DNA from: a virus
Length of the DNA stretch: 45,943 nucleotides
Strand: one strand, 5' to 3'
Virus record (IMG/VR): IMGVR_UViG_3300017730_001898
Coordinates: 1-45,943 of that record
Shown: one piece after another, positions 17,599 through 41,515 of the stretch
Numbering within the stretch: the first letter of the stretch is position 1
Layout: each line of letters begins with the position of its first letter
Notes under the pieces: generated by a model
Told to the model about the DNA's origin: nothing
The model's input: the letters and a program-made list of their open reading frames with translations, nothing else
Databases searched by the model: none
Program-made: the position numbers and the translations under genes

Positions 17599-18320
17599 AA
17601 ATATATGTAAATGGTTGCAGTTTTAGTCATGGACATAAAGACTTTGTTATAAAAAATGGAAAGTCAGACATATCGCCAGATTGGGTGTGGCCAATGCTTT
17701 TAAAAAACAACTTTCAAGATGTTGTATCAGAAGCATACAGAGGTTCTAGCAATCATAGAATAATAAGGCGTAGTATGGAATATTTAGAAAATATAAATGA
17801 TCCAGAAAATTGGACTGTTATTATACAATTTGCCAGTTTAGAAAGGCAAGAATATTATGATGAGGATTTACAATGTTGGATAGGACTTGTTGCAGACAGT
17901 CCTTGTATAGATGATATGTCCCCCAGAATAGGTAATGAATTTTTAGATGATAAAACGTCATACAAGGCTTTTAAAAGTAATTGTGGATTAGTAAATAATA
18001 ATATTAGTATAATGACAGATCTAATATTACAAATTTTAGCATTTCAAAATTTTTGCAATACAAAAGGATTTAAAAATGTTTACTATACAGGTCAAAGCAA
18101 AACAACTTTGATTAGTCATTATTTACAGCACAAGACATGGTTAGATGAATTTATGAATTTAAAAAAACTTGCATGTAATATAGATACATCAAATTTTTTA
18201 TTACCTGTATCACATATTGCTGTAGGACATGAGGAAGGTCCAGATGATGGCCATCCAAACGAAGTAGGACATCAGTTGTTCGCAAGATATATATTAAATG
18301 AGATAGAAAATTATGAGTGA
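17595..18320 (+). CDS. SGNH/GDSL-type hydrolase
   Basis: A 241-residue protein starting with the block I GCSFSHG (nucleophile Ser in GCS). Near the C-terminus it has DDGHPNEVGHQLFARYI, which supplies the Asp-x-x-His pair of the SGNH triad. Family members are esterases or lipases acting on acyl or acetyl groups, including cell-envelope sugars. Its position between primase and helicase (overlaps of 4 and 8 nt) is odd for a lysis or entry function and suggests early or middle expression. The substrate is unknown. A second member of the family is at 34497. Confidence 0.75.
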   Translation: MKIYVNGCSFSHGHKDFVIKNGKSDISPDWVWPMLLKNNFQDVVSEAYRGSSNHRIIRRSMEYLENINDPENWTVIIQFASLERQEYYDEDLQCWIGLVADSPCIDDMSPRIGNEFLDDKTSYKAFKSNCGLVNNNISIMTDLILQILAFQNFCNTKGFKNVYYTGQSKTTLISHYLQHKTWLDEFMNLKKLACNIDTSNFLLPVSHIAVGHEEGPDDGHPNEVGHQLFARYILNEIENYE

Positions 18321-20951: not shown

Positions 20952-22208
20952 ATGAGATATGCAGATTTATCAGAAAGTTTTTTAAGGCAAATAATACTTG
21001 AAGCAGAAGGTAAAAATACTCACCTTGAACATTTAGAGGATAATATTTTTAATAAAGGCTTTCAGGGAGCCAAAGATGCAGTAAACTATCTATACAGTTT
21101 ACACGAAATGCTGGAAGGAAATACAAAAACACCAATAAGCATGACAACAAAATGGGACGGTGCACCAGCCGTTGTGGCAGGTAAAGATCCAGAAACAGGT
21201 AAATTTTTTGTAGGAACTAAAGGTGTATTTGCACAAAAGCCTAAAATAAATTTTACAGATAAGGATATAGAAGAAAATCATCCATCAGAAGGATTGCAAG
21301 AAAAATTAAAAACTGCATTGAGAAATTTAAGGAAACTTAATTGGAATACAGTTGCACAAGGTGATATGCTTTATAGTAAAAGCGATTTAGAAACAAAAAC
21401 TATTAATGGAGAGGAAGTATTAATTTTTAAGCCTAATACAATAGTTTATGCAGTACCAACAGATAGTGATTTAGCAAAACAAATTAGCAGTTCTGATATG
21501 GGTATTGTTTGGCATACAGAGTATGTAGGTGGACCTACATTAGCAGATACCCAAGCAAAGTTTGGATTTAATAGCAGTGAACTAGGAAGTACTCCTAGTG
21601 TATGGCACAGAGACGCAATAATAAAAGATTTTAGTGGTACTGTTACATTTACACAAGAAGAAAGTGATAATGTAATGAGTGCTATTAGTGAAGCAGATAA
21701 CTATTTAAAAAGTATTGATTCTGAAACATTTGGTTGGCTAGAAAAAGGAAACGATCTAATAGGTAAAGACTTTTTACAACAATTAAAGGCTCATGTAAAT
21801 AATAACATCAGAGCAGGAGCATTTGACGAGCCTACGAAATTTGCACAAGGGTTTGTACAAAAGTATATAGATTTCATGCAAAAGAAAATAGACGGTTATA
21901 AGACAGAAAAGAAACAAGAAGAAATGACTGAAAAATTAGTACAGGGTGTTAAGTTTATTAAAGAACATGTTCCTGGTATTGTTGCTGTTTATGATTTGTA
22001 TTTAAAACTTATTGAAGCAAAGATAAGGATAGTTAAAAAGTTAGAAACAATTAGACAGTTACCTACATTTAAAGAAACAGACAACGGTTATGAAGTGACA
22101 GGCGAAGAAGGATTTGTTGCTGTAGACAGAATGGGTAATGCATTAAAACTAGTAGATAGACTGGAGTTTAGCAGACTAAACTTTGGAACAGGAATACCAG
22201 GCAAATAA
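20952..22208 (+). CDS. KxDG nucleotidyltransferase-like protein with capsid-targeting-like N-terminus
   Basis: A 418-residue protein. TTKWDGAPAVV at about residues 65-75 carries K-x-D-G, the motif I lysine signature of covalent nucleotidyltransferases (DNA/RNA ligases). It is followed by FFVGTKGVF, an AQGDMLYS motif-III-like strand and a VLIFKPNTIVYAVP segment. I recognise this as a conserved cyanophage family (I believe DUF6267), with no demonstrated activity known to me. The N-terminus MRYADLSESFLRQIILEA contains I-L-E|A, a good prohead-protease site, suggesting packaging in the head. The C-terminal third is helical and basic. It belongs to the late operon from 19699. Confidence 0.7.
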   Translation: MRYADLSESFLRQIILEAEGKNTHLEHLEDNIFNKGFQGAKDAVNYLYSLHEMLEGNTKTPISMTTKWDGAPAVVAGKDPETGKFFVGTKGVFAQKPKINFTDKDIEENHPSEGLQEKLKTALRNLRKLNWNTVAQGDMLYSKSDLETKTINGEEVLIFKPNTIVYAVPTDSDLAKQISSSDMGIVWHTEYVGGPTLADTQAKFGFNSSELGSTPSVWHRDAIIKDFSGTVTFTQEESDNVMSAISEADNYLKSIDSETFGWLEKGNDLIGKDFLQQLKAHVNNNIRAGAFDEPTKFAQGFVQKYIDFMQKKIDGYKTEKKQEEMTEKLVQGVKFIKEHVPGIVAVYDLYLKLIEAKIRIVKKLETIRQLPTFKETDNGYEVTGEEGFVAVDRMGNALKLVDRLEFSRLNFGTGIPGK

Positions 22209-22209
22209 A

Positions 22210-23007
22210 ATGGACTTTAAATTAATAGATAAAGAAATATCAGAAGCAAGGTTGTATAGAACTACATCAGGCTTCAATCAACTTACTGGTGAGTCTGTAG
22301 CAGAATTATTATATTTAAATACTCTAATAACTTTTTTAATGTATAAAGATGATAAACAACATGATTTTGCAAAGTCTTATGCAAAACAAAGCACACAATA
22401 TGGAAAATATACACTATTTAGAAGTCATGCAACAGATTTATATTTGTTAGCATATTTGGTATCTAATCCTGACAGCAAAAGTATTAAACTAAGAAATAAA
22501 CTCAGCAGTAAAAAACATTTAGATAGCCTTAAGTTTGATAAGAAAACACATTGGCAATTTATGTTTAAGTTAGCAAATGATAGAATAACAGATACTGTGG
22601 CAAGTCCATATCTGTTTAGATTGGAAAGCCAACTAAAGATTAAAAAATCCATGTACAAGCAATGGCGTAGATTAATAATGGATTGGGAAAATTTAAGATA
22701 TATACAAAGGCAGAGCGTTACAACCAGAATAGTACAGGAGTTAAGACGTTTAGGCAGAGGCAGTGAGTTAATGACACCTATGACTAGTATGCTTAAATAC
22801 AAAAAATACAGAGTAAGAGACAAGGTTACTAAAACAGATCCAATGAAGAGATTGGGTGGTACTGTGGCAGGAGCAGTTGCAGGTCGTTATGCGGGTAAAA
22901 AGATTGCACAAAAACTAAATAAGAATGTAGATAAATATAAGAAAGCAGGAACAGGACTTGGCGCAATAGCAGGTTATTGGGCAAGTGGAAGGCAAAGACA
23001 AAAATGA
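22210..23007 (+). CDS. Putative packaged protein with glycine zipper
   Basis: A 265-residue basic protein. The ATG at 22210 is 1 nt after the previous stop; an in-frame TTG at 22183 is less likely. The N-terminus MDFKLIDKEISEARLY contains I-S-E|A, a match to the T4 prohead-protease consensus. The middle is helical and basic. The C-terminus has LGGTVAGAVAGRYAGKKIA and GTGLGAIAGYWASG, paired glycine-zipper helices like those of membrane-inserting or channel-forming peptides. It may be an ejected protein that acts at the host membrane. No enzyme motif is seen. Its stop overlaps the next ATG. Confidence 0.65.
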   Translation: MDFKLIDKEISEARLYRTTSGFNQLTGESVAELLYLNTLITFLMYKDDKQHDFAKSYAKQSTQYGKYTLFRSHATDLYLLAYLVSNPDSKSIKLRNKLSSKKHLDSLKFDKKTHWQFMFKLANDRITDTVASPYLFRLESQLKIKKSMYKQWRRLIMDWENLRYIQRQSVTTRIVQELRRLGRGSELMTPMTSMLKYKKYRVRDKVTKTDPMKRLGGTVAGAVAGRYAGKKIAQKLNKNVDKYKKAGTGLGAIAGYWASGRQRQK

Positions 23008-23576
23008 AAATAAACGACATATTAAGTGAAGCACCAGCAGTAGGATCAGGTCCTAGTGCCGCAATGGCACGAGGTTCAGAAGAAGTTAGAGCTGACTTAG
23101 AATTTGCTACACTTAAAAAGTTTAGTCCAAAATTTGCAAATGAATTTAAACAAAAGTTCCAATTATTAGGTAAATCCAGTGTTGATGCGGCTTATCAGGC
23201 GGCGGCTGAATCAAACCCTGCTTTTGGTTTGTCAGTTGCAGATGCAAAAGGAATAGCCAGTGCAGAACATGGCTCCGCAGATTATAATTCCAAGATGAAT
23301 GCATTTATATCTGCTATGCCAGACAAATATAAAAGTGTTAAAAAACAATTTAGAAAAATAGATACACCAGCATTATCCAAAGCGGCGGCTGGCCAAAGAG
23401 GCTGGAGCGATGAAACACATGGCCATTTAAGAAAGGGTACACAAGACTTCTTAAAGAAAATGAAGGTGGCTGGGCAAGACAAAATGGCAGATATCAAAGG
23501 CGGTTGGGATATTGGTGCTAAATTAGGTACTTTCTTAAGCAAACCTGTTGGTGTTAGCAGAGTCAAACGTAATTAA
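23004..23576 (+). CDS. Putative packaged internal head protein
   Basis: A 190-residue Ala/Lys/Ser-rich helical protein. The ATG at 23004 overlaps the upstream stop (ATGA); a TTG at 22977 is a weaker alternative. The N-terminus MKINDILSEAPAVGSG matches both the form and the cleavage site (L-S-E|A) of T4 capsid-targeting sequences. No domain is recognised. It is last in the late operon from 19699 and is followed by the late box of the small-protein array. Confidence 0.65.
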   Translation: MKINDILSEAPAVGSGPSAAMARGSEEVRADLEFATLKKFSPKFANEFKQKFQLLGKSSVDAAYQAAAESNPAFGLSVADAKGIASAEHGSADYNSKMNAFISAMPDKYKSVKKQFRKIDTPALSKAAAGQRGWSDETHGHLRKGTQDFLKKMKVAGQDKMADIKGGWDIGAKLGTFLSKPVGVSRVKRN

Positions 23577-25404: not shown

Positions 25405-25644
25405 ATGCCTAAAAAGAACGAACCAGAATTAACACCTAAGCCTTATGTAGAAAGTGGTAATATAGAAGCACATATAATTGCAGACATGCTTCGTATAGAA
25501 TCAATATCATCAGAATTAAAAGAATTTAAAGAAGTTACAAAAGAAAGATTAAACAAACTAGAGAGTTGGATAATTGCTATTGTAGGATTAACCTTTACGA
25601 CATTGGTTACTACAGTAGTTGGATTATTAATGAAAATGCTATGA
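25405..25644 (+). CDS. XhlA-like small membrane protein, possible holin partner
   Basis: A 79-residue protein with a polar N-terminus and an amphipathic coiled-coil-like helix (about 30-52, ISSELKEFKEVTKERLNKLE). One C-terminal transmembrane helix follows (about 53-77, WIIAIVGLTFTTLVTTVVGLLM). This layout matches haemolysin XhlA-type proteins, which assist holin-mediated lysis in some phages. It is late, between virion genes and cargo genes. No endolysin is seen in the window, so the lysis role is tentative. Its stop overlaps the next ATG. Confidence 0.6.
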   Translation: MPKKNEPELTPKPYVESGNIEAHIIADMLRIESISSELKEFKEVTKERLNKLESWIIAIVGLTFTTLVTTVVGLLMKML

Positions 25645-25925
25645 GATTAGAAGAATTTACAGATGAGCCTATTATAGAAGCCAGAATGGTTTGGCGTAAA
25701 ATGGGTAACACAGTAAAACGTGCTATCAGATGTACAAGTGGTAGACGCAAAGGTAGAGTAGTGAGTAATCCTAGTCAATGCAATAAGCCTATAGATTTTA
25801 GAAAACGTTTAACAATGAAGAAAACAAAAGCAAGATTGGGTGCAAGAATGTCTAGACGAGCACAAAGAACTAAACGTTTTAATATACAAAGCAAAAGAGT
25901 AAAAGCACTTAATAAGAGAAGATAA
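25641..25925 (+). CDS. Very basic small late protein with prohead-protease-like site
   Basis: A 94-residue protein whose ATG at 25641 overlaps the preceding stop (ATGA). The N-terminus MRLEEFTDEPIIEARM contains I-I-E|A, a match to the prohead-protease consensus. The remaining 80 residues are extremely rich in Arg and Lys (CTSGRRKGRVVS, MSRRAQRTKRF) and have a Cys pair. This composition fits a DNA-binding protein packaged with the genome, like the basic T4 internal proteins. Similar basic proteins (SGRRKGR motif) are familiar from marine T4-like phages, without known function. Its stop overlaps the giant gene start. Confidence 0.7.
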   Translation: MRLEEFTDEPIIEARMVWRKMGNTVKRAIRCTSGRRKGRVVSNPSQCNKPIDFRKRLTMKKTKARLGARMSRRAQRTKRFNIQSKRVKALNKRR

Positions 25926-28900
25926 TGAAGTTTAAAGATGTTAAAACTTTAGAACATTTATTAAAAGAGTATGGTGCATCTTCAGGTGGAGGTGCAGTAG
26001 GTGGTGGTGGACACGGTGCTAGTGCAAAAGCAAATAAGTCTAAAAAATCTATAGCAAGTGGACCAGATGTTAGTACTGCATCTCCAACTGTAACAGGACA
26101 ACCTGCACAAAAACCTCAACAAGCAAAGCCAAGTACTAATCAAGTAAAAGCAAAAGATTTACAAGACGGCGATATGGTTGTCAGCAAAGATGGTAAAACG
26201 GCAGAAGTATATTCTAAAGTAGGGCAAGGAAACAATCCTAGTGCATTAATTACAAAAGACAAACAAGGCAATCTAGCAGAAATACCAAAAGACGAAACAG
26301 TAGATGCTATACAACCAAATAAACCAGGAGAGTTAGATACCATACCTGATGAAAAAGAAAGAACAAGTTTCAAAGATAGAATTAAGCAAGGAATGGCATT
26401 AGGAAATAAAATTGCTGGTGTAGATGAAGGTAAGTTAGGTAAACTTGCTAAAGGCAAAGGTAGAAAATTACAAATTAGAAAATTAAAAGGTAAAATTAAA
26501 AGACTTGCTAAATCAAAATTAAAAGAAGCAAATCCAAAATTATTTGAAATAAACTTTAACAGAAAAAGTGTAGCAAGAGAAGCCTTAGATACTCCAGTAA
26601 AATGTGGTTTTGAAGCAGAAACATTTTTCTATAATGTTGAAGGTGGCAATAGTTCTCATGTTGATGATATGAGTATCGGAGACATTGAGTACGAATACGG
26701 TGACTTACCAGATAGTGCATATGAAGATTATAGATCATGGTTATATGATAAAGGACAAGAAGATTATTTAGACGACCTAGTAGCAGATAAAATTCAGGAA
26801 GTTAAAGAAGATGAAGACTGGCTAGATGAGTTTATAGATAGTAGCTCAGGTCCAAGTTCAGAAGCAATAGAAAGATATAAAGACGATTTCCAAGACGCCG
26901 ATCCCAAAGAATACGAAAACCGTGAAGAAGATGGTTGGACTTATATAAACTGGGTAAGAGAATATGTTGAAGAAGAATACGAAGATGAATACCATGAATG
27001 GTTAGATGGTGCGGTTAGAGAAGATTACAATTTAGATGATGAAGCCACAGAGGCCGCTGAACAAGACTACAGTATGGACGATTGGGTATATGACAACTAT
27101 AGTTATATGAGTGATTTCCTAAATGATTATGGTTATGAATATAGTGATGGAGGCGGAGATGTTGAACAAGTTGCCTCAGAATTACATACTTGGGCTGAGA
27201 ACAACAGTAAATTTACGGACTTTCCGGAATCAGGGGATTACGGTGATACTTATACCACAACTGCTTGGGCTGTGGAAAAAGATAGCAGTATCGAACCTGA
27301 TGAAGGTACTGGTGCAGAACTTATATCACCGGTATTTGATAGTCCCAGAAAAATGCTTTCTGAAATGAAAAGTTTATTTGACTGGAGTGAAGAAAACTTT
27401 GGAACAAATAATTCAACAGGACTTCACGTTACTATGAGTTGGAACGGTGAACCAGATGCACCTGTGGATGAGAACGGTAGAAGGGAAGGCCAAGAACTTA
27501 ACAAATTAAAAATGGCATTACTGTTAGGTGACCCGTACTTACTAGCAGAATTTGGTAGACTTAGAAACAGTTATACAAAAAGCCAATATAATAATATATT
27601 AAAATATGCCGAAGGTATGAAACGTGGAGATGCTAACAGTTTGGAAGAGTTTGAAAAAATGTTATCAAAAGGAATAGATACAGGTAAATTTAATACTATC
27701 CACTTTAAGGATGATAAGGACAGAGACTCAAATAATAAACTTATAGAGTTTAGAATAGCCGGTGGTGCAGATTACAATGAAATGTATGAAAAAGTTGTAA
27801 AAGCAGTTGTGCGATATGCTACTGTGATGAAAGCAGGATATGATAAAAATGCATACAGAGATGATTATGTTAATGCAGTATTTAGGTTATTGCGTAAATC
27901 ACAGGAAATAGATCCTAAAAAATTAAAAGATTTAGAAGTTGTTAATCATCCTATAATAGATTCAGCAAAAGAAATAGTTGGTAAAAAGGATTACTTTGAT
28001 GTTGTAAGGTATTTAAGTAATAGTGTGGAATACTATAACGAGTATAAAAACTTATCTGATCCAGATGCAGATAAAAAATGGAAACAAAGTATAAAAGATT
28101 ATAAAAAAGGCACTGGCAGAGATCCAAGTTGGGTGGGCGAAGCAGAAGAAGGCGAATCAATAACTGGTTACATAGAGCCAAGTAGCATGCCACCAAGTAA
28201 GAGGGCAGAAGGCAGATTCCAAAAATCACAAGAGAGTTTTATTAATGCTGTTGTAATTTTGTCTAGAGATATAGCAGATGGTATTACTAGAGGCTCTGTA
28301 AGAGCTAAAGACATTAGTATATTTAGAGATTATTCCAAACAATTAGAATTAGACGATAAAAAATTACAAGGATTGGCCTTAAGGCAATTAAACGACCAAA
28401 ACTACAACGGTACAGATAAAGAAAATATAGCAAGACTTAAAAAAGGAATAGATACTTTATTTAAAAGGGATATAATACAAGAGCCAGGATTTATGTCCCA
28501 TCAGGATGTAGATGTAATATTAAAACAATTATGGCAATTCTTCCAAACAGATGATAGTGATGATTATCATAAAAGAGTTGAATTAGCAGATTTGCTAATA
28601 GGTGCAAATCCAAATATGGCAGGTCTTGGAAACAATAAAGATGATGATGAAAAGCATGGCCTAGTAATGGATTTTTTACAAGAAATTTCTCATACAAGAC
28701 AATTAAATACTTTTGTTGCTAAACTCAGAGGATCAGGTTACGGTAATTATATTACACCAATTGAATCTGGTAAAATGACAAATCAAGATGAAGTAGAAAG
28801 TCTTAAGAAATTTTTAGAGCCTTATGGAGGATATGATCATCCTACAAGTAAGGATCATCATATAAACATCAAAAGTGATGACAAGTATGAAGATGTAGCA

Positions 28901-31900
28901 AAAAGTTCTCTAATACAAAAATGTAGAACTAGATTAGACTATATAAAAGATCTACAAAACAGTGAACCAGAAAAGTATCAAAAAATTAAAACTAAACTAA
29001 TAAAAATAGGTGAGACTCTTGTAGATACTATAGTTGCACCTGAAGATGGAGAAGGCATAGAAGGTGCTGATATTACTGATAAAGATGGAACAAATATAAG
29101 TGGATTTATAAAAGATCAATATAATAGGCAAGATAGTTGGTGTCTTAATTTACATCGTAGGGATTGGAATAATACAAAGGATTTTCTAGCCAAATCAGGA
29201 GATAAAGACGACGACACATATAATTTTACTTCAGCATATGACGATTATGTTGTAAGAAATCCATTTAGTATGGTTTTAGATTATTATAAAAGTAAAAGTG
29301 ACTTCGCTAATATACATAAAAATTCAGAAGTTAAAAAGATTGTTAAAAATAACTTTGCAGGCTTTAAAAAGTTTTTTAATGAGTTTGATAAAATATTTAC
29401 ATCAGAAGGATTTACAGATCTTAAAGCAGAGATATCAGATAAAGACAGATACGATAAACGTAACAAAGACTTTGAAAAAAATGTTAGAGATAATGCTAAA
29501 GCCAAGTTAAATATTCCTAGTCATAGTTTTATATATTTCGATAAAGATTTTTGGGAAACACTCACAGACAATAGTTATGCTGACAGAGGGCCATGGCTAG
29601 ATAATAATTTAGATCATTTTGGAGATGACCTTAACAAAGAAGGTAAAATTTATGTTATACCTTCAGCACATTGGTCACAGGCCGACGATGCATTTAATGG
29701 TTTGGATCTTATAAAGAATTTTGAAAATGCTAAAAATTATTTTCATACATGGCGTAGAATAGGATATAATAAAATACTCAGCAAGTTCATGGCCAAATAT
29801 AATGTATCTTTTGAAAATCTTACAGATAGACAAGGTAAGTATATGTCTCAACCTGATAATATGGAATCAACTTTAAGTGATTTTGCTATTGAGGTTACAC
29901 ATAAAGGTGATAGCAGATCCGGTGCGCCTGGGCAAGAAGATTTAGTTCCAACAGAAGATTTAGAAAATCCAAACAGTGGTGAGCCAATTAATAGAGGTTC
30001 TGCAATGATGTGGGATCAGAGTACAGACGATGCAGAGAAAAAACGTTTTGATGCATTTGATTGGGGATTGTATCCAACAAAAATGAAAGATGTTGTTGCT
30101 AAAGAAATGGAAAACGAATCTAGTTTCCAACTGGCATTACAAAATGTACTACAGAAAGTTCTTGATAATAAAGTAGATATAGATCAAAATGATTTAGGCT
30201 TGCCTGATGAAAAAATTATGTATGCGGCTGGTGTAGATGGTAGCGAGTTAGAAGGTAAAGCATCAAATACTATATCACAGAAAGCAAATTGGACTAACCT
30301 AGCAGATTATTTAAAATTAGAACGTGGTGTAAATGATCAGGGTGTAAACTTACTTAAAAAAGTACACAGTCAGTATGACAGTGACGGCCAAAAATATAGA
30401 ACAAAAGACGATAATATTACTGTGGGAATGGAAAGATGGCTATTGGCTGTAAAAGATGCTATTAAATATATAGAAACAAATTATAAAGTTAGTGGCGGTA
30501 ACTATTTTAGAGATGGCGATGATGTAAGTGATGTACATAGTTCAACAACAGACCACGAAAGCGGAGTTGCAATAGAAGATTACGATGAAATGCGTAGTAA
30601 ATATTTTAATTTTAATGCTATGATGATGAATGGTATGCAAAATTATTTAGTACAAACAGATGTAAACAGACTGGTAGGATTCCTTAAAAATCCAGACAAT
30701 GATGAAGAATTTAAAAAGGATGTTTTACAAAGCATGATGAGAGAAAGAGAATTAGGAATGGAACCAAATGACTTCCAAGGTGCATTAGCCAGGGGTAGAA
30801 TGTATTCTCAACGTCAAAGAGAAAGTGTGTTTAATAGATTTGAAAATTTGCCTTTAGAGGAACAATTAACAATTATATCTAAATCTAAAGTATTAGAAAA
30901 TTTAAGTAAAAAAAGCGAAGGTCCATCTAGTGATGCTTTGCCAGACAATAGTATTCCTTATCTGCTTAATAAACTACTTGCTGAGCCTATGAAGGCAGGA
31001 GATCTTAGAAAGCAAATGGATGCATATTGGGCCTTACCAGTACCTCAAATGCTATCAGATTTTAGAGCCGTAAGAGCACAAGGCGGCAAAGAAGCAGATT
31101 GCAGAAATATTTTGAAGCAGTATATTAATTCACAACTAGATCCACAAATTAAAAAGCATGTAAAACTTGTAGAAAATAAAGATGATGTAATTGATAGAAT
31201 AAAAGGACTACCAGATGAAGATAAGCAAACAGACAAAGTAGTTCAATATATAGAACAATTATTAGATGATATGGGAGTAGGTGGTAGATTAGCCAGTTTG
31301 ACATCTAATTTAGAAGATATAGATGACGAGGAAGTTAAAAAATCTAATGTAAAACTTGCTAAAATAATTTCAAGTATAGAAATGACACCATTAGAAAGAG
31401 CACAACTGTTTGCAAGTTGGAAACAAGATAAATTAATAGATGTTAAAAAATTACTTTCAGGTAATGGGCAAACATTTAGTGAAGTATTTAAAGGGTATGG
31501 AGACGAAATTTATATGACAGAACTTATAGACGATTTAGCGGATGTAGATTCATATGGTATAGGTGCAGGAGAGTTTTTACTTGCAGTATTAAGTCAGAAA
31601 ATAAAAGGTATTGGTTCAACAGGCGGTTCAGGAGATTTACTAATAGATGGTAGAAATGTAGAAGTAAAAACAAAAACAAGCCGAAATGCTCGTTTTAAAG
31701 ACTGGCATGTACAACCTGACCAAACATGGGCAAGTAAAGTAGAAAAATTTAAACAAGACTTTGCAGACATAGATGAGGTTTCAGGTGCGGCAACAACAGG
31801 AATGAACTCTACGCAATTAAGTGCTATGTTAAAAAATCCTGTATTGCAACAAAATCCTGAAAGGAAGAAACAAGCATTATTAAGTATTATGGCTATATTT

Positions 31901-32197
31901 AAAGCAACTAATACTAACTTATCGTCAGCACAATATAAAGAATTAGTAAATTTATTAGATGCAGGAGATGACTCAGCATTTAAACAAAAATATGGTGCAT
32001 ATAATATACTTAACTATTTAAATATTAAACGTAGTGATGGGGAATTAGAGGGTATATTATTCATGAATAAGAAAACTAAAACAGTTCATTATGTTAAAGA
32101 TTTAAATGACATACAAAATTTAGCATTAGAGGTAGGAACAATTTATCCTATTAGTACAAATAGTATATATCCTTATCCTCAAATAGGAGTCAAATAA
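25925..32197 (+). CDS. Giant polyvalent protein with amidoligase-like and PD-(D/E)XK nuclease-like domains
   Basis: A 2090-residue protein, the largest in the window. The N-terminus MKFKDVKTLEHLLKEYGA has the cargo-type start, followed by a Gly/Lys/Pro-rich linker to about residue 120. An amidoligase-like domain spans about residues 225-700. It shows CGFEAETFF near 227 (GxExE type), GTGAELISPVF near 461, and STGLHVTMSW near 497, the motifs of glutamine-synthetase-fold amidoligases. A long, highly charged helical middle follows. Near the C-terminus GAGEFLL (about 1880) and GDLLIDGRNVEVKTK (about 1902-1916) give the E, D and ExK residues of a PD-(D/E)XK nuclease. Multi-domain giants of this kind are known as phage polyvalent proteins, thought to be delivered with the DNA. 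Domain calls are by motif only. Confidence 0.7.
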   Translation: MKFKDVKTLEHLLKEYGASSGGGAVGGGGHGASAKANKSKKSIASGPDVSTASPTVTGQPAQKPQQAKPSTNQVKAKDLQDGDMVVSKDGKTAEVYSKVGQGNNPSALITKDKQGNLAEIPKDETVDAIQPNKPGELDTIPDEKERTSFKDRIKQGMALGNKIAGVDEGKLGKLAKGKGRKLQIRKLKGKIKRLAKSKLKEANPKLFEINFNRKSVAREALDTPVKCGFEAETFFYNVEGGNSSHVDDMSIGDIEYEYGDLPDSAYEDYRSWLYDKGQEDYLDDLVADKIQEVKEDEDWLDEFIDSSSGPSSEAIERYKDDFQDADPKEYENREEDGWTYINWVREYVEEEYEDEYHEWLDGAVREDYNLDDEATEAAEQDYSMDDWVYDNYSYMSDFLNDYGYEYSDGGGDVEQVASELHTWAENNSKFTDFPESGDYGDTYTTTAWAVEKDSSIEPDEGTGAELISPVFDSPRKMLSEMKSLFDWSEENFGTNNSTGLHVTMSWNGEPDAPVDENGRREGQELNKLKMALLLGDPYLLAEFGRLRNSYTKSQYNNILKYAEGMKRGDANSLEEFEKMLSKGIDTGKFNTIHFKDDKDRDSNNKLIEFRIAGGADYNEMYEKVVKAVVRYATVMKAGYDKNAYRDDYVNAVFRLLRKSQEIDPKKLKDLEVVNHPIIDSAKEIVGKKDYFDVVRYLSNSVEYYNEYKNLSDPDADKKWKQSIKDYKKGTGRDPSWVGEAEEGESITGYIEPSSMPPSKRAEGRFQKSQESFINAVVILSRDIADGITRGSVRAKDISIFRDYSKQLELDDKKLQGLALRQLNDQNYNGTDKENIARLKKGIDTLFKRDIIQEPGFMSHQDVDVILKQLWQFFQTDDSDDYHKRVELADLLIGANPNMAGLGNNKDDDEKHGLVMDFLQEISHTRQLNTFVAKLRGSGYGNYITPIESGKMTNQDEVESLKKFLEPYGGYDHPTSKDHHINIKSDDKYEDVAKSSLIQKCRTRLDYIKDLQNSEPEKYQKIKTKLIKIGETLVDTIVAPEDGEGIEGADITDKDGTNISGFIKDQYNRQDSWCLNLHRRDWNNTKDFLAKSGDKDDDTYNFTSAYDDYVVRNPFSMVLDYYKSKSDFANIHKNSEVKKIVKNNFAGFKKFFNEFDKIFTSEGFTDLKAEISDKDRYDKRNKDFEKNVRDNAKAKLNIPSHSFIYFDKDFWETLTDNSYADRGPWLDNNLDHFGDDLNKEGKIYVIPSAHWSQADDAFNGLDLIKNFENAKNYFHTWRRIGYNKILSKFMAKYNVSFENLTDRQGKYMSQPDNMESTLSDFAIEVTHKGDSRSGAPGQEDLVPTEDLENPNSGEPINRGSAMMWDQSTDDAEKKRFDAFDWGLYPTKMKDVVAKEMENESSFQLALQNVLQKVLDNKVDIDQNDLGLPDEKIMYAAGVDGSELEGKASNTISQKANWTNLADYLKLERGVNDQGVNLLKKVHSQYDSDGQKYRTKDDNITVGMERWLLAVKDAIKYIETNYKVSGGNYFRDGDDVSDVHSSTTDHESGVAIEDYDEMRSKYFNFNAMMMNGMQNYLVQTDVNRLVGFLKNPDNDEEFKKDVLQSMMRERELGMEPNDFQGALARGRMYSQRQRESVFNRFENLPLEEQLTIISKSKVLENLSKKSEGPSSDALPDNSIPYLLNKLLAEPMKAGDLRKQMDAYWALPVPQMLSDFRAVRAQGGKEADCRNILKQYINSQLDPQIKKHVKLVENKDDVIDRIKGLPDEDKQTDKVVQYIEQLLDDMGVGGRLASLTSNLEDIDDEEVKKSNVKLAKIISSIEMTPLERAQLFASWKQDKLIDVKKLLSGNGQTFSEVFKGYGDEIYMTELIDDLADVDSYGIGAGEFLLAVLSQKIKGIGSTGGSGDLLIDGRNVEVKTKTSRNARFKDWHVQPDQTWASKVEKFKQDFADIDEVSGAATTGMNSTQLSAMLKNPVLQQNPERKKQALLSIMAIFKATNTNLSSAQYKELVNLLDAGDDSAFKQKYGAYNILNYLNIKRSDGELEGILFMNKKTKTVHYVKDLNDIQNLALEVGTIYPISTNSIYPYPQIGVK

Positions 32198-32718
32198 TGC
32201 ATATTAGAGAAGTTTTCGATAACATGGACAGAAATACAAAATTAATGAGAGACCTTGAACAACAGGAAATCGATAAGAAAAATTTAAAAACACCAGAAGA
32301 GATTAAAAAATATATTATAGGCCTCAAACTTGCAGGTTTAGTTCAATACAAAGAAGATATTATTACATTATTTAAATATTTTGGATTACCAATCAAATTG
32401 AATGCAGAAGCCGGTGGCGGTGGCGGTGGCGGTGCCGGAGGTGGTGCTGGTGGCGGTGCTGGTGGCTCAGGAGGAGCCGGTGCTGGTGCAGGAGCAAGTT
32501 CAGGCGGTGACGGTGGTTCAGCAAGTTCAAGTGGAGACAGCGGGTCTGCAGATGGTGGTAGTTCAGGAGATAGTTCTACTTCATCATCCGCTGATTCCAC
32601 ACCTACACCTGTAAGCAGAGGGTATGCATTTTTAGGAAGTATGTCGCCTTACAAAAAGAAAAAGAAGAAAAAGAAAAAAAGTAAGAAAAACTTTGATTTC
32701 GGTAAAGGCGTCTACTAA
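32197..32718 (+). CDS. Gly/Ser-rich low-complexity late protein with poly-Lys tail
   Basis: A 173-residue protein in three parts. A helical N-terminal 70 residues begins MHIREVF, the cargo-type start. A Gly/Ala run then shades into Gly/Ser (about 70-135). The tail has nine consecutive lysines plus KSKKNFDFGKGVY. No enzyme motif is seen. The low-complexity part is encoded by GGT/GGC-rich repeats that stand out in GC content from the AT-rich genome. It may be a flexible linker or a DNA-binding packaged protein. Its start overlaps the giant gene stop (TAATG). Confidence 0.6.
   Translation: MHIREVFDNMDRNTKLMRDLEQQEIDKKNLKTPEEIKKYIIGLKLAGLVQYKEDIITLFKYFGLPIKLNAEAGGGGGGGAGGGAGGGAGGSGGAGAGAGASSGGDGGSASSSGDSGSADGGSSGDSSTSSSADSTPTPVSRGYAFLGSMSPYKKKKKKKKKSKKNFDFGKGVY
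32412..32500 (+). repeat. GGT/GGC-rich low-complexity tract
   Basis: A run of short, imperfect GGTGGC, GGTGCC and GGTGCT units encoding the Gly/Ala run of the protein at 32197. It is locally very GC-rich compared with the rest of the window and prone to replication slippage. Confidence 0.7.
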
Positions 32719-32720
32719 AA

Positions 32721-34484
32721 ATGAAATTATTTGAACTGGAAGACAGACCTGAATTGGATAAAGTGTTTCCCAGAAGCATAATGCCACAAGTCAGAAAAAA
32801 TAACCTTGAAGATTCTGGTTATGAGTTTGAAAAGAAAAAAATAAAATTAAGTAAAATTAAACCTGTACAAGATCAAAGAGTACAGGGTATGCATGATAGA
32901 GCATTAAAAGGATTTCAAGACGGCAGTATTAGGCCTATAATTATAGACAAACATAATTATATTGTTAATGGGCATCACAGATACGATGTTGCCAGAAGTT
33001 TAGATTTAGATAAAGTAAAAGTTCTTAAAGTAGATGCAACAATAGAAGAACTAATAGATCATTATAGTGATAAAACTAGTGATGCTCCCACAATAGAACA
33101 ACAACTTAAATCAAAGTTACAGCAAAAACTTAAAGAAATTCATAGTGCTAAACCATATGATAATATGGACGACAATGGATTAATAAAATTTAGATATGAA
33201 GATGCAACATCTGATCCACAGCCATTTGGAGAAGATGCACATTTAAAATTAGCACCTATACCAGGAATATCCAGAAATGAAGTATATGATAATGGAGTTT
33301 CTAGACATATATTCCTTATGAATAATAAAGAACCTATATTTTTACTTACTATAAAAAAACAATTGGACGGTTGGGTTACAACAAATGTAGTTACTCACAG
33401 TAATTACAGAGGAAAAGGATTTGCTGTGCCTGTTTACTTAGCAGTTAGTAAAGCATATGGAGAACCACTTTATAGTTTTGGAACACAGAGTCCTGGAGGA
33501 CATAAAATTTGGCAAAATCTTGCAAAACAACATCCAAAAAGAGTAACTGGATATGATACAGTATCTAAACAAGAGGTTCCATTCGCTGATGTTTTTGATG
33601 GAAAGGTAGCCACTAGAGCAAAACTACTACCAGAAAGTATTCAACGAAGAGATTGCTATGAGGCGGCAGTAAAACAAATGTTAGAGTATGCTAAAGAAAA
33701 TCCTGCTATGGTAAACTCATTAAGCCTTGTTCATGGATATGTAACCGGCCAAGCCAGTTATGTAAAAGACCAACGTTATGGACACGGTTGGTTAGAAATA
33801 GGCGATGTAGTACAAGATTGTACTAATAATGCTGTAATGAGGAAAGAACAATATTATAAATTAGGAAATATCAATCCTGATGAATTAAAAAAATATTCGT
33901 ATAAAGATGTTTTACAAAAAATATCTACTACTAAACATTATGGGCCTTGGGATTTAGAAAAAACAGAATTTGAAAAAGGCATTGAAGAAGATGTTGTGGG
34001 TATGAATCCAAGTGCCAAGAAGCCTTACTTTTCACCACAAGAAGCAGACAGAGCCAATAATGAATGGGTAAACCAAGCACAGGTAGATCAAGGAGACGGT
34101 GTTATAATAAAAGCCACAGACGGCAAACAATATCGTATAATGACCAGTTATGGCAATCAACATTTTGAGGATGGTGAAGTTTACTTAGATGGCATTACTG
34201 ATGCTGGATTTATAGACCCAGAAGGCTACCCGGATGCCGCAGAACTGTTATACTATCATAGTGCTACAGGACATTATCCTGATGATGAGGAATATGAAGT
34301 ACAAGAAAACTTTAAAGACGGTAAAAAGAAAGGTAAAAGTCGTCCAGGCAGAGTAAAGAAAGCAGGTGCCAGTTGCAATGGCTCAGTTACAAGTCTACGC
34401 AAAAAAGCAAAAAACAGCAGTGGTGAGAAGTCCAAAATGTATCACTGGTGTGCCAACATGAAGGCTGGCAGAAAGAAAAAATAA
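32721..34484 (+). CDS. Multi-domain cargo protein: ParB-like, GNAT-like and papain-like
   Basis: A 587-residue protein with the cargo-type start MKLFELEDRPEL. A ParB/sulfiredoxin-like domain (about 38-105) has IRPIIIDKHNYIVNGHHRYD. A GNAT-like segment (about 190-270) has THSNYRGKGFAVPVYLAVSK, close to the acetyl-CoA-binding motif A. A possible papain-like or transglutaminase-like domain follows, with RRDCYEAA near 311 and YGHGWLEIGDVVQD near 354-367 supplying Cys, His and Asp. The C-terminal 60 residues are basic with two Cys (KKAGASCNGSVTSLRKK, MYHWCANMKAG), a tail I recognise from other marine myoviruses. Each domain call is by motif, but the combination again fits a polyvalent injected protein. 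Confidence 0.65.
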   Translation: MKLFELEDRPELDKVFPRSIMPQVRKNNLEDSGYEFEKKKIKLSKIKPVQDQRVQGMHDRALKGFQDGSIRPIIIDKHNYIVNGHHRYDVARSLDLDKVKVLKVDATIEELIDHYSDKTSDAPTIEQQLKSKLQQKLKEIHSAKPYDNMDDNGLIKFRYEDATSDPQPFGEDAHLKLAPIPGISRNEVYDNGVSRHIFLMNNKEPIFLLTIKKQLDGWVTTNVVTHSNYRGKGFAVPVYLAVSKAYGEPLYSFGTQSPGGHKIWQNLAKQHPKRVTGYDTVSKQEVPFADVFDGKVATRAKLLPESIQRRDCYEAAVKQMLEYAKENPAMVNSLSLVHGYVTGQASYVKDQRYGHGWLEIGDVVQDCTNNAVMRKEQYYKLGNINPDELKKYSYKDVLQKISTTKHYGPWDLEKTEFEKGIEEDVVGMNPSAKKPYFSPQEADRANNEWVNQAQVDQGDGVIIKATDGKQYRIMTSYGNQHFEDGEVYLDGITDAGFIDPEGYPDAAELLYYHSATGHYPDDEEYEVQENFKDGKKKGKSRPGRVKKAGASCNGSVTSLRKKAKNSSGEKSKMYHWCANMKAGRKKK

Positions 34485-34496: not shown

Positions 34497-35645
34497 ATGT
34501 CCAAATACGGTAAAAAACCACTTTCATCTACACAACAACGATTAAAAGATTATCAATTAGGAATTTATCATAATGCAAATGCCAAATGGGCAAACGAACT
34601 AAGAGTATTAGGTAAAAATCCACAAGACGATAACAAATACGATATTGATTTAGACTTAATGAAGGAAACAATCATTAAAGATTGTGCAAACTATCTTCCT
34701 TTAGAAGACCATGGCGGAAAAGAATTGCAGAATAGTGATTACTCAGTATCTTGCCAATGGTATCCAAGTGATACAAAACATCTTTTTGAAAGTAATATGG
34801 CAGATCCAACTACAAAATCACTTATGAATAAAATAGGGTGGTGCGACGAAAATAATAATCCAACACAGGTAATTTATAATTTAGATAAAAATGGTTTTAG
34901 GTGTAAAGATTTTAAGCAGGAGAGAGGGAAAGGAATATTATTTTTAGGATGTAGTCATACATTTGGAGTAGGTTTAAATCAACAAGATACATTTGCTTTT
35001 AAAGTAGCAAACCACTTTGACAAGGAATGTTTTAATTATGGTATGCCAGGAAAAGGATTAGATACTGCGGCTTTATATACATCTTTATATTTGCAAGATG
35101 ACATTGATGTAGGCTACATAGATGCAGTTGTAGTTTACTGCCCGCCACCAGGAAGGGTTAGTTATTTTAGTTATAATACTGAATATGATATGGGTAGAGG
35201 GTACAATGAATTGGAGTTTCTCCAACTTCAAAATGATTATTTATTGCTAACTGACTATTATGATGACTCATATCTAGATAATGTACCATATGATGAAATG
35301 GCAGATATTGAAGAATTGTTTAATCTTAAAAATGCAAAAAGTAAATACGAAGTAAAAAAATTTTTAAAAGCAGGATTAGATCAACATGTTTATAAACATA
35401 GATCTGCTATGTGGGAACATTTTATGTTTACAAAAGAAAATAATTTTTACCGAGGACTACTTGCAGTAAACAGTATTAAAAGTTTTTGCTTGGAGAATAA
35501 TATTCCATTAGTATTAACAGAAGGGTCACCAACGATTTCTACTAAACATGATTGGGCAAGGGACTTAGGACACTTTGGACCACAAACCCATAACAATATA
35601 GCACAAGAAATTATTTCTAAGTTAGAGATATATCTAGATAAATAG
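34497..35645 (+). CDS. SGNH/GDSL-type hydrolase, larger form
   Basis: A 382-residue protein. GILFLGCSHTFGVG at about residues 146-159 carries the nucleophile Ser. CFNYGMPGKGLDT gives the block II Gly and a nearby Asn. Near the C-terminus DWARDLGHFGPQTHN could supply Asp and His. It shares the GCS-x-x-x-G opening with the 241-residue protein at 17595 but has a long N-terminal extension. It is probably an esterase-like enzyme; late context would fit a role at the cell surface or in the virion. The substrate is unknown. A poor late-type box (CTAAATAA) lies just upstream. Confidence 0.68.
   Translation: MSKYGKKPLSSTQQRLKDYQLGIYHNANAKWANELRVLGKNPQDDNKYDIDLDLMKETIIKDCANYLPLEDHGGKELQNSDYSVSCQWYPSDTKHLFESNMADPTTKSLMNKIGWCDENNNPTQVIYNLDKNGFRCKDFKQERGKGILFLGCSHTFGVGLNQQDTFAFKVANHFDKECFNYGMPGKGLDTAALYTSLYLQDDIDVGYIDAVVVYCPPPGRVSYFSYNTEYDMGRGYNELEFLQLQNDYLLLTDYYDDSYLDNVPYDEMADIEELFNLKNAKSKYEVKKFLKAGLDQHVYKHRSAMWEHFMFTKENNFYRGLLAVNSIKSFCLENNIPLVLTEGSPTISTKHDWARDLGHFGPQTHNNIAQEIISKLEIYLDK
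35637..35644 (+). promoter_or_regulatory. Late-type box overlapping the upstream stop
   Basis: GATAAATA formed by the last codons of the SGNH gene, 5 nt before the ATG at 35650. It may be functional or a by-product of coding. Confidence 0.4.
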
Positions 35646-35649: not shown

Positions 35650-35997
35650 ATGCTTATTAAGGACATAATTAACGAAACAACCAGTAGTGGCGGTATAGCC
35701 AGTGTGGCAGTACCAATGAATAGTGATATTATAAAACGACCTGGTCCCGTAGTTAAAAAGAAAAAGAAGAAAACAACAGAAGATCAAGTTCCATATTTGC
35801 AGAGACCCAACTCACCATATGAATTAGGAAAGCAAGAATACCTACGTAAGAATCCAGGCAAAACAGAAGAAGATTTCAAAGAGTTATTGCCCAATCAACA
35901 AAACAAATACTTGGACAAGTATGTTGAAGGAAAATCTCCACACAAAAAAGGCACCAAAAAATATAAAAAACACATGGCGGCCATGCACGCCGGTTAA
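35650..35997 (+). CDS. Small basic late protein with capsid-targeting-like N-terminus
   Basis: A 115-residue protein starting MLIKDIINETTSSGG. The I-N-E|T site is close to the prohead-protease consensus, and the start matches the cargo-type pattern. The rest is rich in Lys and Pro (VVKKKKKKTTED, SPHKKGTKKYKKHM) and is probably DNA-binding or disordered. Function is unknown. It is followed 1 nt later by the next small gene. Confidence 0.6.
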   Translation: MLIKDIINETTSSGGIASVAVPMNSDIIKRPGPVVKKKKKKTTEDQVPYLQRPNSPYELGKQEYLRKNPGKTEEDFKELLPNQQNKYLDKYVEGKSPHKKGTKKYKKHMAAMHAG

Positions 35998-36657: not shown

Positions 36658-37959
36658 ATGTTTATTAGAGATTTTAATCAGCAAGGACAAAATAAAATAA
36701 CAAAAATTAACAAACTGTTAAGCGAAGAGTTTGGCATGAGTATCAAGTCATCTTATCCTAAAAAGGAAAAGTTACAGACTATACTCGAGATGTCAGATAA
36801 GGCTATAATTAAATTGAAAGATACTACAAAAAACTTTCAGTTAGAGCCTGAATATGCAAAATATCTTGGTATTAAAGATGTTATGAAAACTATGATTAGT
36901 GAAGGCATGTATGCTGAATCACCAGCATACGTGGAAATGAAAGAAAAACTTTGTGCAGAAGTTCAAAACTTAATGGATTCAGGTTGTACTGAATCTGAAG
37001 CAGTAAGCCAATGCATGAACACATTCAGAAAAAATCCTAATTACTGCCACGATGATGAACACATACTTCCTATTGTTATGATGGCGGCTAAAGATTACAT
37101 GGAAGGTGGTTGTGGTACACATGAATCACTAGAAGAGATTGCAACAGAAGGTCCAGATTCAGAATTAAACGAAAAACTTTTAAGTGAACTTGCTAAAGAG
37201 ATAGGTATAGAATTATCAAATCATGACAGTATGAGTGCAATAGAAGAAAAACTTAATATGTTTGCAGAAGTTACAGGCAAGAGCAGAGATTCAGTTGTTG
37301 GATTTTTGAATGGACTTGAAGAAGATGCAGTAGTACAAGGTATTAAGTTCTTTGGTGCTAAAGTTAGAGAATCAAATGCATTTGTAGATGCTAGAAGAGA
37401 AGCAATTAAAAATGACGAAGATGAGTTTACAGTAGGTGGAAAAACTTACAAAGTTACAGGCGATACATCAGACGAAAAGAAAAACGAAAGTATGTTTGAC
37501 AGTATTATAGACGAAATGCTTTCAGAAGAAGTTGAGTCAGTTGAAGAAGCAGAAGTTGTAATGGCTGTTAGAGCATTAGCAGACGATATTCAAGATCATG
37601 TAGAAAGACTAGGCAGAATGGTAAACGAAGATTTACCTGCAATAGCAGACCAAATGGTAAATGAATTTGGTGCTGATAAGGCCGCTTCATTTAAAAGCGA
37701 AGCAGAGGGTGTTTTATCAGGAGCATTAGAAAGTGCCAAACAGGCAAAAGATGGTGTTAATGGTCTAGTTGGAAGTATTACTGGTGAAGATATGGGTCTA
37801 GGCGGAGACGACATGGGTAGCATAGAAGATCCATTAGGTGCAGACAGTCCAATAGATGACATGGAAGAATTACCAGCAGAACCTGAAATGGATGTAAACG
37901 AACCAGCGGCGGCAGGACCAGAAGAAGAGCCACTAGGTAGAGCACCTGTAGAGGTGTAA
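36658..37959 (+). CDS. Acidic late protein, putative virion or head protein
   Basis: A 433-residue, mainly helical and acidic protein. Residues about 95-155 contain four or five Cys in short spacing (MDSGCTESEAVSQCMNTFRK, NYCHDDEH, GGCGTHE), possibly metal-binding. The last 60 residues are Asp/Glu/Pro/Gly-rich and probably disordered. I recognise similar proteins from marine T4-like phages without assigned function. The late box and 5' stem-loop suggest strong late expression. The start MFIRDF resembles the cargo-type N-terminus but has no clear protease site. It is followed 2 nt later by the next gene. Confidence 0.65.
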   Translation: MFIRDFNQQGQNKITKINKLLSEEFGMSIKSSYPKKEKLQTILEMSDKAIIKLKDTTKNFQLEPEYAKYLGIKDVMKTMISEGMYAESPAYVEMKEKLCAEVQNLMDSGCTESEAVSQCMNTFRKNPNYCHDDEHILPIVMMAAKDYMEGGCGTHESLEEIATEGPDSELNEKLLSELAKEIGIELSNHDSMSAIEEKLNMFAEVTGKSRDSVVGFLNGLEEDAVVQGIKFFGAKVRESNAFVDARREAIKNDEDEFTVGGKTYKVTGDTSDEKKNESMFDSIIDEMLSEEVESVEEAEVVMAVRALADDIQDHVERLGRMVNEDLPAIADQMVNEFGADKAASFKSEAEGVLSGALESAKQAKDGVNGLVGSITGEDMGLGGDDMGSIEDPLGADSPIDDMEELPAEPEMDVNEPAAAGPEEEPLGRAPVEV

Positions 37960-39385: not shown

Positions 39386-41515
39386 ATGGCAACAAGTAAC
39401 AATACAGTAGTAGTATCAAGAATACAAAACCGTAGAGGTTTAAAGCAAGACCTACCTCAGCCACTTCGTTCTGGTGAAATTGGTTTATCAACCGATAGCA
39501 GACAAGTTTTTATTGGTGGTGGTGAAATTGACTCTACAGAAAATAAAGTATTGATATTTGAAAATACTGATAACGCAAGACAAATTGTGGACAGTATTGC
39601 CAAAAATCAAATTATAAGTTTTACAGTACCACATAGACGTTATAACACCAGTTTAGATGGATTAAATGGAACAGCAAAAGCCTTTACATATACTGGTGGT
39701 TCAGATGTTAGTGACACAAACAGTTCAAGAGATGTATTTAGAAGTTCAGTAGGAGCAGGAAATCTTGTTAGTATAGAAACAGGTTCGGCTTTTGATGCCG
39801 ACGATTTAAGTGTAGTAAAAAACGGTATAGCACTTATAGGAAACAATATAGCAAGTATTGGTAACTTAACTACTGAGGACTATATTTTCTCATCAGGTAC
39901 AAGTTTAGGTAATGATCATACTATAACTTTTAAATCTATTCCATTAACAAGTGATGATATAGGTATTACTTACTATGGTAATTCCGCAATTAGCAGAGTA
40001 TTAAGTGGTGCACCAAGTGGTGATGCTAATATTAAACCAGGATATAGTGCATTAACAAATTTTTATGCTAGAGATAGTGTACCTACATTTTTGCAAATAC
40101 CTGAAGACTTAATTATTGTTAATTCGACTACAGGTTCAGGATATATAGGATTTCAGCATAAACATATAGCAGTTACGGCCCTAAGTACTTCAGATGTAAG
40201 TACTTTAACGTTTACAAATTTCTTAGTAAGTAAAGATAGCGAATTAATTGATAATATAACATTTGCAGAATCTTCAGATACGTTTACAGTACCTTATGCT
40301 CATGCAAATCAAAAGTATGTTCCAACTTCAACAGCAAATAATTTTAACCGTGTTCATATATCAAATTGTAGTGTTTCAGCAGTAAACGGTGTTCACAATA
40401 TTACTGCCGCAAATGCCACACATTTCCAGTTTGCAATTAGTGGATATAGTGGTGCTACAAGTGGTACACTAGCTCACACAAGAGTTTTACAGTATGATAT
40501 ATCTGGTGCACCTAGTAGTGGCGATATTACTACTTCTTTAAATACTATTTCAGGAATTATTAATAATAGAGGAAACATTACAACAGGTTCTAACGTAACG
40601 CAATCATGGGGTAGTTTAAATGTTACACCAGAGTTTGATTCAGCAACAGGTAGTGCATTAGCATCAAAGCAAGTGTATTTTACTCATAAGTCTACTCAAA
40701 ATAGTAACCCAGCAGACTTTACATTACACGAAAGTGGTAGCACATTAACAAATTTAAAACTTACACCACAAAATTATAATAGATCAACTAATACTATAAG
40801 AGCTCAATTAGAGCAGTTTTTAGTAGAAGCAATGGAAAATGTAAACCTTAATGTATTTAATAATATTCAAGTAAATCAAAGATATAAGGCTAATTCTACT
40901 TTAGATGCAAAAATTAATTCATATAATTTAAATACAAATACAGAAGGCACAGAAATTACATTTGATACTAATGAAGAAGCCAGAAACTTCTCAACATTAG
41001 TAAACAACTTATATTTTGAATACAGTATTTACAATACTCCAGGTGCAGGTGGTTTAGGAAGTTTAACAGTCAATTCACGTGGACTTACTAACATAAAAAA
41101 TAATATACAATTACAAACTGCCGAGGGTGCCTCAAGTGGATTACCTGATGTAGGATATGACTCAACAGAAACAGCAAGTGTACCAGCAGAAGCAAATACT
41201 AACATTAAAACATTTGATATGACTGCTTTTGATACTTTCGTAATAGATTACAGTTTAGACTTTAGAAATGGTGCAGACTTATACAGAAAAGTTGGATTAC
41301 TTCAATTGTCCAGTTATGATTATGGATCAGGAAATCCTGCAGATGTAGTCATACAGGATTATGGTACTGACAAAGCACTTGGTAGTGTAACAGGAAATGT
41401 ACAGTTCACAGCAAATGTGGCTAGTAGTGTATTAACTCTCACAGCAATAAGTAGTGTAAACCAATCTTGTGCCATGAAATACATTGTTAGAAAATGGAAC
41501 GCACCTTCAACATAA
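39386..41515 (+). CDS. Tail-fibre-like virion protein
   Basis: A 709-residue protein. The N-terminus RIQNRRGLKQDLPQPLRSGE followed by IGLSTDSRQVFIGGG matches the fibre-attachment domain found at the start of many phage fibre and tropism proteins (Mtd-N-like: Q-x-RRG...L-x-x-GEIG). The rest is Ser/Thr/Asn/Gly-rich and beta-repetitive, with no enzyme motif, as expected for a trimeric fibre or a baseplate-attached protein. I recognise this N-terminus from marine T4-like phages. It has its own late box and AGGAGA ribosome-binding site. It may determine host range. Confidence 0.78.
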   Translation: MATSNNTVVVSRIQNRRGLKQDLPQPLRSGEIGLSTDSRQVFIGGGEIDSTENKVLIFENTDNARQIVDSIAKNQIISFTVPHRRYNTSLDGLNGTAKAFTYTGGSDVSDTNSSRDVFRSSVGAGNLVSIETGSAFDADDLSVVKNGIALIGNNIASIGNLTTEDYIFSSGTSLGNDHTITFKSIPLTSDDIGITYYGNSAISRVLSGAPSGDANIKPGYSALTNFYARDSVPTFLQIPEDLIIVNSTTGSGYIGFQHKHIAVTALSTSDVSTLTFTNFLVSKDSELIDNITFAESSDTFTVPYAHANQKYVPTSTANNFNRVHISNCSVSAVNGVHNITAANATHFQFAISGYSGATSGTLAHTRVLQYDISGAPSSGDITTSLNTISGIINNRGNITTGSNVTQSWGSLNVTPEFDSATGSALASKQVYFTHKSTQNSNPADFTLHESGSTLTNLKLTPQNYNRSTNTIRAQLEQFLVEAMENVNLNVFNNIQVNQRYKANSTLDAKINSYNLNTNTEGTEITFDTNEEARNFSTLVNNLYFEYSIYNTPGAGGLGSLTVNSRGLTNIKNNIQLQTAEGASSGLPDVGYDSTETASVPAEANTNIKTFDMTAFDTFVIDYSLDFRNGADLYRKVGLLQLSSYDYGSGNPADVVIQDYGTDKALGSVTGNVQFTANVASSVLTLTAISSVNQSCAMKYIVRKWNAPST

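Follow-up and report, generated by a model that had tools for sequence, protein, structure and literature searches.

A mosaic late protein of a T4-like marine phage, probably carried in the capsid as protease-trimmed cargo

Phage T4 offers a precedent for proteins that are targeted to the head, cleaved, packaged and injected (PMC9026906, PMC5694885, PMC3012670, PMC7411985 and PMC9958956). Two of these sources report that foreign proteins are packaged when they carry the T4 CTS and that gp21 trims Alt at its two ends (PMC9026906, PMC5694885), and LIE is cited as conforming to the gp21 logo (PMC9026906). T4 ipII and ipIII start MKTYQEFIAE/A (NC_000866); here and below a slash separates P1 from P1'. 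Propeptides of the phiKZ and SPN3US head ejection proteins are removed after Glu by a gp21-related protease, but the motif is Ala/Ser-x-Glu, the propeptides are often long, and the accessible text reports no shared C-terminal module (PMC9026906, PMC5694885, PMC10052503). Polyvalent proteins (Iyer et al. 2017, PMC5512222) place disparate domains, ParB-like and GNAT among them, in one late polypeptide that is predicted to be injected. The word "papain" is absent from that text, "prohead protease" stands in its reference list only, and constant cleavable ends are not described in the part accessible.

We analyzed a virus record of 45,943 bases (IMGVR_UViG_3300017730_001898; the window), which carries T4-like replication genes (UvsX-like, UvsW-like helicase, DnaB-like helicase and primase) and ribonucleotide reductase. 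For two genes of this group the nearest cultured matches are large phages, at 55-61% identity. By eye, 10924-12030 is S-adenosylmethionine synthetase-like (phrog_1569, function unassigned in PHROGs, E 2.8e-115) and 12003-12560 is adenine phosphoribosyltransferase-like. The ORF at 32721..34484 on the + strand begins with ATG, encodes 587 amino acids and contains the sequence strings quoted in a preliminary description. It lies in a late virion-gene context, in which the proteins of 36658-37959 and 39386-41515 match virion structural PHROGs (2.3e-11 and 3.6e-5). An AlphaFold2 model of residues 1-532, built on 69 aligned sequences (mean pLDDT 82.6), predicts three different folds in one polypeptide, a trait of the polyvalent type. 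The features of the protein are:

32721..32744, + strand: leader MKLFELED, CTS-like, of the form M-[KR]-x-x-E-L (PSSM score 7.9)
32811..33113, + strand: ParB/sulfiredoxin-fold domain, residues 31-131, motif VNGHHRY at 82-88 (PHROGs, fold match, conservation)
33246..33614, + strand: GNAT-fold domain, residues 176-298, motif YRGKGFA (fold match, conservation)
33630..33965, + strand: papain-like/NTAQ1-like domain, residues 304-415, with C312, H355, D366, a conserved H338 and an HxGPW motif
34017..34304, + strand: fourth shared domain, residues 433-528 (family comparison and model)
34305..34310, + strand: predicted prohead-protease site V-Q-E529/N530-F at the cargo/tail junction (family-wide pattern)
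34308..34481, + strand: hyperconserved basic C-terminal module (the tail), residues 530-587, charge +17.8, pI 10.8, three predicted helices

The preliminary description had assigned ParB-like, GNAT-like and papain-like folds to this protein. These assignments hold on the model, the fold matches and residue conservation, the papain-like one tentatively as regards its fold, and neither the GHHRY motif nor the C/H/D residues are lost among homologues; the C-terminal module and the fourth shared domain were absent from that description. PHROGs ParB-like families match residues 66-143 (phrog_620, E 1.3e-8; phrog_8071, 2.5e-7) and phrog_2859 matches residues 17-167 (6.5e-12); Pfam ParB_N gives E 0.19, under the cut-off. 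The model matches pNOB8 ParB-N (Z 9.4, 4.4 Å, 101 aligned) and Arabidopsis sulfiredoxin (Z 8.3, 3.1 Å, 81 aligned), and distinct homologues retain G84, H86 and R87 without exception (45/45 each) and H85 in 39/45. For residues 176-298 the matches are to HAT1 and NatD (Z 6.1-6.9) and, by Foldseek, to RimI-type enzymes, while residues 304-415 best match human NTAQ1 (4w79; a middling Z of 7.9, 3.9 Å, 111 aligned), scores of 6-8 being in a range where common arrangements occur too. The acetyl-CoA loop of GNAT enzymes has the motif Q/R-x-x-G-x-G/A, and distinct homologues keep the Q/R in 13/15, G231 in 15/15, G233 in 14/15 and A235 in 13/15. Structurally, then, the third domain comes closest to an amidohydrolase that acts on N-terminal glutamine, not to a protease. 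The predicted domain resembles NTAQ1 in its modeled fold, with a conserved Cys at a helix start and His and Asp on strands; it differs in its sequence (7-8% identity) and in an added conserved His and the HxGPW motif. Its residues are nearly constant in distinct homologues (C312 and H338, 68/69 each; H355, 69/69; D366, 66/69). The papain-like domain belongs to a broad family, for which 122 stretches of IMG/VR fitted a search pattern, 83 of these were confirmed and 80 loci kept. Pfam Transglut_core3 was weakly matched in 6 of 34 relatives, and PDB sequence searches returned no match. In the window protein, Pfam named none of the three domains with confidence and gave no match to the GNAT region. 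All three domains also occur together in a 1414-aa protein (L082) of G002, the nearest long relative (250 kb, 69% identical), and, without the tail, in L210/L211.

What most of the relatives share with the window protein is its end. Among the best 79 loci, most match mainly at the last ~60 residues, many of them 80-90% identical and in uncultured phages; at least 595 of 599 stretches were confirmed as relatives. The tail (+17.8) is attached to a remainder of charge -12 and is modeled as three helices with local pLDDT of about 75-85; a fold search with residues 433-587, in which the tail portion was barely covered, gave nothing notable (best Z 3.7). In 58 distinct tail cores, 20 of 55 columns are invariant and most others nearly so. 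The invariance of MYHWCANM is biased, because recovery of tails partly required an exact match to it; the GNAT scan led to a less biased set of tails, in which conservation is almost as high, with L200 as a divergent exception. One tail each was found in 17 of 20 large records and none in the three reached via the papain-like domain. L225 has two copies within one ORF, and in 15 ORFs, several of them copies of each other, further sequence follows, so the tail is not always terminal. Two GTDB contigs also carry it. Searches of 50,697 phage records by tblastn (whole protein, tail, 35-aa tail core and two papain-like proteins) and by blastn of a tail gave no convincing match, the unmasked tail queries, run with a positive control, producing at most three unconvincing ones (E 0.8-10). 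The strings MYHWCANM, KSRPGRVK and GKSRPGR occur in no paper of the literature searched, which held few subscription papers, and listings from it showed no paper describing such tails. A zinc-binding tail using two Cys and one His was considered, an idea weakened by the divergent tail of L200, where neither Cys remains.

The tail is joined to differing middle domains: ParB-like, GNAT, NT5C nucleotidase and Cu/Zn superoxide dismutase. A Pfam scan of 56 proteins (52 with a tail), which yields domain counts only, matched NT5C in 16/56, Cu/Zn superoxide dismutase in 8/56 and ParB_N in 8/56, and, in one protein each, pterin-4a-carbinolamine dehydratase, a zeta-toxin-like kinase and cytidylyltransferase. 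By eye, the tail-bearing L013, L014, L031 and L280 (the last outside the Pfam scan) are akin to the Cu/Zn superoxide dismutase-like set.

Just before the tail, nearly every protein has the form hydrophobic-x-Glu/Asn-Phe. Across 65 distinct sequences upstream of the tail (one further row was dropped as too short on that side), P1 is Glu and P1' is Asn in 65/65, and P3 is one of LIVFMY in 55/65 against a background of 28% (p 2e-21). P2 and P4-P13 are near background, with weak deviations at P12 (p 0.01) and P8 (p 0.04). Held-out junctions, taken from loci of a DNA-pattern scan and omitting rows with <16 upstream residues or identical to the first set, have Glu in 50/51, the sole exception (L249) being a register error, and hydrophobic residues in 45/51 at P3 and 2/51 at P2. 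Rows with a Glu-Asn junction and at least 30 upstream residues, grouped by the similarity of their upstream sequence, fell into 48 unrelated clusters, of which 43 have a hydrophobic P3. We read the junction, from its sequence pattern, as a predicted site with the hydrophobic-x-Glu motif of the T4 gp21 kind.

The constraint on P3, Glu and Asn-Phe could instead belong to the fold of the tail. The protein would then be packaged and injected with its tail uncut, P3 onward being the start of that fold and the tail a permanent DNA- or scaffold-binding domain. The Asn-Phe after the Glu is as constant as the tail itself, and the charge of +17.8, the helices and the 15 ORFs with a non-terminal tail fit such a domain. 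Upstream of Asn-Phe, only P3 and P1 are clearly constrained, which argues against a fold boundary, as do minimal proteins (L033, L053, L058, L264, L273, L274, L275, L277, L244 and L255) that consist of a leader and a tail meeting at one shared site, so that the leader's own site is the junction. Examples are MRIFEVVE/NFADG in L033, MKIVEITE/NF in L273 and MNSFIQFFSE/NY in L244. The same rule also precedes a second module, in a 115-aa neighbor (35650-35997) with leader MLIKDIINE:

35929..35994, + strand: second basic module GKSPHKKGTKKYKKHMAAMHAG, preceded by Y-V-E/G and unrelated to the first tail, at the C-terminal end of the 115-aa neighbor

This module is hyperconserved and recurs on proteins that differ in all else, in 53 ORFs and 25 distinct contexts, including papain-like proteins that lack the first tail (L083, L086 and L136). 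Its 25 contexts have Glu at P1 in 25/25 and a hydrophobic P3 in 20/25 (p 1e-8), of which only P3 is a test, Glu and Gly having been part of the pattern that located the core. At their N-termini, 12 of 24 such proteins match a leader pattern. Since two unrelated basic modules follow one rule, hydrophobic-x-Glu/Gly here and hydrophobic-x-Glu/Asn there, a protease site is favored over a fold constraint, and we judge an uncut tail unlikely. The tail is probably a cleavable peptide that serves as a second targeting signal or binds DNA or scaffold.

The N-terminal end bears marks of head loading as well. The pattern M-[KR]-x-x-[DEQ]-[LIVF]-x-E starts 28 of 50 tail proteins and 2 of 403 internal methionines; it was devised after the first set had been seen and is counted on the same proteins. 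A PSSM trained on that set scores >5 at 23/43 held-out N-termini versus 1/382 internal methionines (held-out denotes only this test and the second junction set). By either count about half of the tail proteins fall outside the leader form (22/50 by the pattern, 20/43 by the PSSM at 5), and all of these counts depend on start choice, the first Met being taken and ORFs cut at contig ends dropped. The closest homologues of the window protein begin MRLFELGK, MKLFELKY and MKLFELQD. Its own leader is the first half of such a leader only, with no clear hydrophobic-x-Glu cleavage site at residues 8-10. In G002 the tail protein is among the top PSSM scores, as are members of its late cluster and a small gene adjacent to the protease, but so are two genes elsewhere. 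Stand-alone papain-like proteins have leaders of T4 form in 7/86 ORFs (two pairs are duplicates) against 0/299 internal methionines, as in L151, L120, L133/L134, L130/L131 and L163; L151 begins MKSFNEHIAE/A, to be compared with MKTYQEFIAE/A of T4 ipIII. Leaders are also found on other late genes of the window:

20952..22208, + strand: DUF6267 protein (Pfam E 2e-103), leader ending ILE/A
23004..23576, + strand: late gene, leader MKINDILSE/A, start re-chosen at an internal ATG
25641..25925, + strand: late gene, leader MRLEEFTDEPIIE/A, start re-chosen; its G002 homologue has the same start
25925..32197, + strand: 2090-aa neighbor, leader MKFKDVKTLEHLLKE; a 48%-identical G002 homologue lies beside the tail protein

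The G001 homologue of the DUF6267 protein begins MRFSEFRPILTE/A. A short leader ending in a site of the form [LIVF]xE[AG] is present in 4/20 late genes of the window and 0/32 others (nominal p 0.018), three of the four having starts re-chosen by hand (22210, 23004 and 25641), and in G002 in 5/19 versus 11/231 (nominal p 0.004); G002 homologues with automatically chosen starts agree with the re-chosen ones.

Several other proteins were also inspected by eye. The 2090-aa protein has an amidoligase-like GFEAE...TGLHVTMSW...EFRIAGG and a PD-(D/E)XK nuclease-like GDLLIDGRNVEVKTK; Pfam found nothing on four pieces of it. A 173-aa protein (32197-32718) is half glycine/serine-rich with a lysine run near its end. 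The products of 34497-35645 and 17595-18320 have SGNH-hydrolase-like starts (GCSHTFG and GCSFSHG), the former with no Pfam match over the cut-off.

The head machinery that such ends would call for is present in G002, which has a T4-type capsid protein gp23 and an S77 prohead protease, adjoining scaffold-like and portal-like genes in ORFs read by eye; its gp23 carries HLSE/AAT. Among the records searched, most of them fragments, the PF03420 protease occurs in 2/18 (G002 and G003) and gp23 in 3/19 (G002, G003 and G021). The window fragment has no match to protease or capsid families. In G001, a 275-kb record with a tail (pieces L336-L349), gp23, S77 protease, portal and scaffold were not detected; it has 97 of 250 G002 proteins in common, none from the G002 head module, which may reflect incompleteness or divergence.

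Set beside T4 IPI-III and Alt, the family shows a similar short leader in many members, the hydrophobic-x-Glu motif and unrelated cargo behind a conserved tag, and the 69%-identical relative encodes a protease and a capsid protein of T4 type. The family differs in that the T4 IPs are small, whereas these proteins are mosaic and multidomain with a hyperconserved 58-residue basic C-terminal module, one per phage record, and in its cargo of ParB/Srx, GNAT, NTAQ1-like, NT5C and Cu/Zn SOD domains. The system is best read as a variation on the capsid cargo of T4, not as a separate kind altogether. The window protein is probably capsid cargo of a T4-like marine phage, with ends trimmed by the protease, and injected with the DNA. 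The short leader would steer it into the prohead scaffold, and the predicted ParB/sulfiredoxin-fold, GNAT and NTAQ1/papain-like domains, with their conserved residues, would be packaged. A T4-type prohead protease would cut after Glu529, at the cargo/tail boundary marked by the family-wide pattern, and in many relatives after the leader as well. The freed cargo would enter with the DNA and modify host components. From one phage to another it is the middle that changes, between constant ends.

The preliminary description had proposed a delivered toolkit of nucleic-acid and protein modifiers. With its observation confirmed, the toolkit is strengthened by the CTS-like leaders, the prohead-protease-type site and the T4-form leaders of papain-like relatives; delivery itself is something we still infer, and "nucleic-acid and protein modifiers" is a guess. 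Both ends of the family bear marks of head loading or trimming, so it is probable that these enzyme-like domains enter the host together with the phage DNA. Packaged cargo could also provide metabolic or stress relief to the incoming genome rather than attack host machinery or defenses, as the NT5C (16/56), Cu/Zn superoxide dismutase (8/56), pterin-4a-carbinolamine dehydratase (1/56) and cytidylyltransferase (1/56) relatives suggest. For the window protein we give this a low probability, its ParB/Srx, GNAT and NTAQ1-like domains looking more like macromolecule modifiers; it is compatible with the capsid-cargo reading and differs from it in purpose only. An ordinary polyvalent effector made in the cell, with no T4-type loading and a coincidental likeness of leader and junction, would fit the mosaic multidomain architecture near late genes that is typical of polyvalent proteins in the accessible part of PMC5512222, but the held-out leader and junction statistics and the T4-form leaders on papain-like relatives make it improbable. 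A plasmid-type partition ParB, to which the weak ParB_N and PHROG ParB-like matches might point, is very improbable: Pfam, PHROGs and fold matches found only the N-domain fold, and this domain of about 100 residues, followed by a GNAT domain in a multidomain late protein, is shuffled among cargo, which fits the earlier view that it is unlikely to serve partition.

More broadly, marine T4-like phages may possess a general capsid-cargo platform, a proposal we advance tentatively, in which protease-removable ends, namely a capsid-targeting leader and one of at least two unrelated, hyperconserved basic modules, flank exchangeable enzyme cassettes, the prohead protease splits the cargo from the basic peptides as the head matures, and these peptides act as a second signal for loading, at the C-terminal end. 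If this is true, the combination of leader, hydrophobic-x-Glu site and basic tail would reveal the head-carried, injected enzymes of uncultured ocean phages with no need of cultivation, and the internal-protein strategy of T4 would be widened from small proteins to mosaic multidomain enzymes, among them superoxide dismutase, nucleotidase, ParB-like and NTAQ1-like ones. It would also supply two natural cargo tags, and proteomics aimed at a defined peptide could then test what phages inject.
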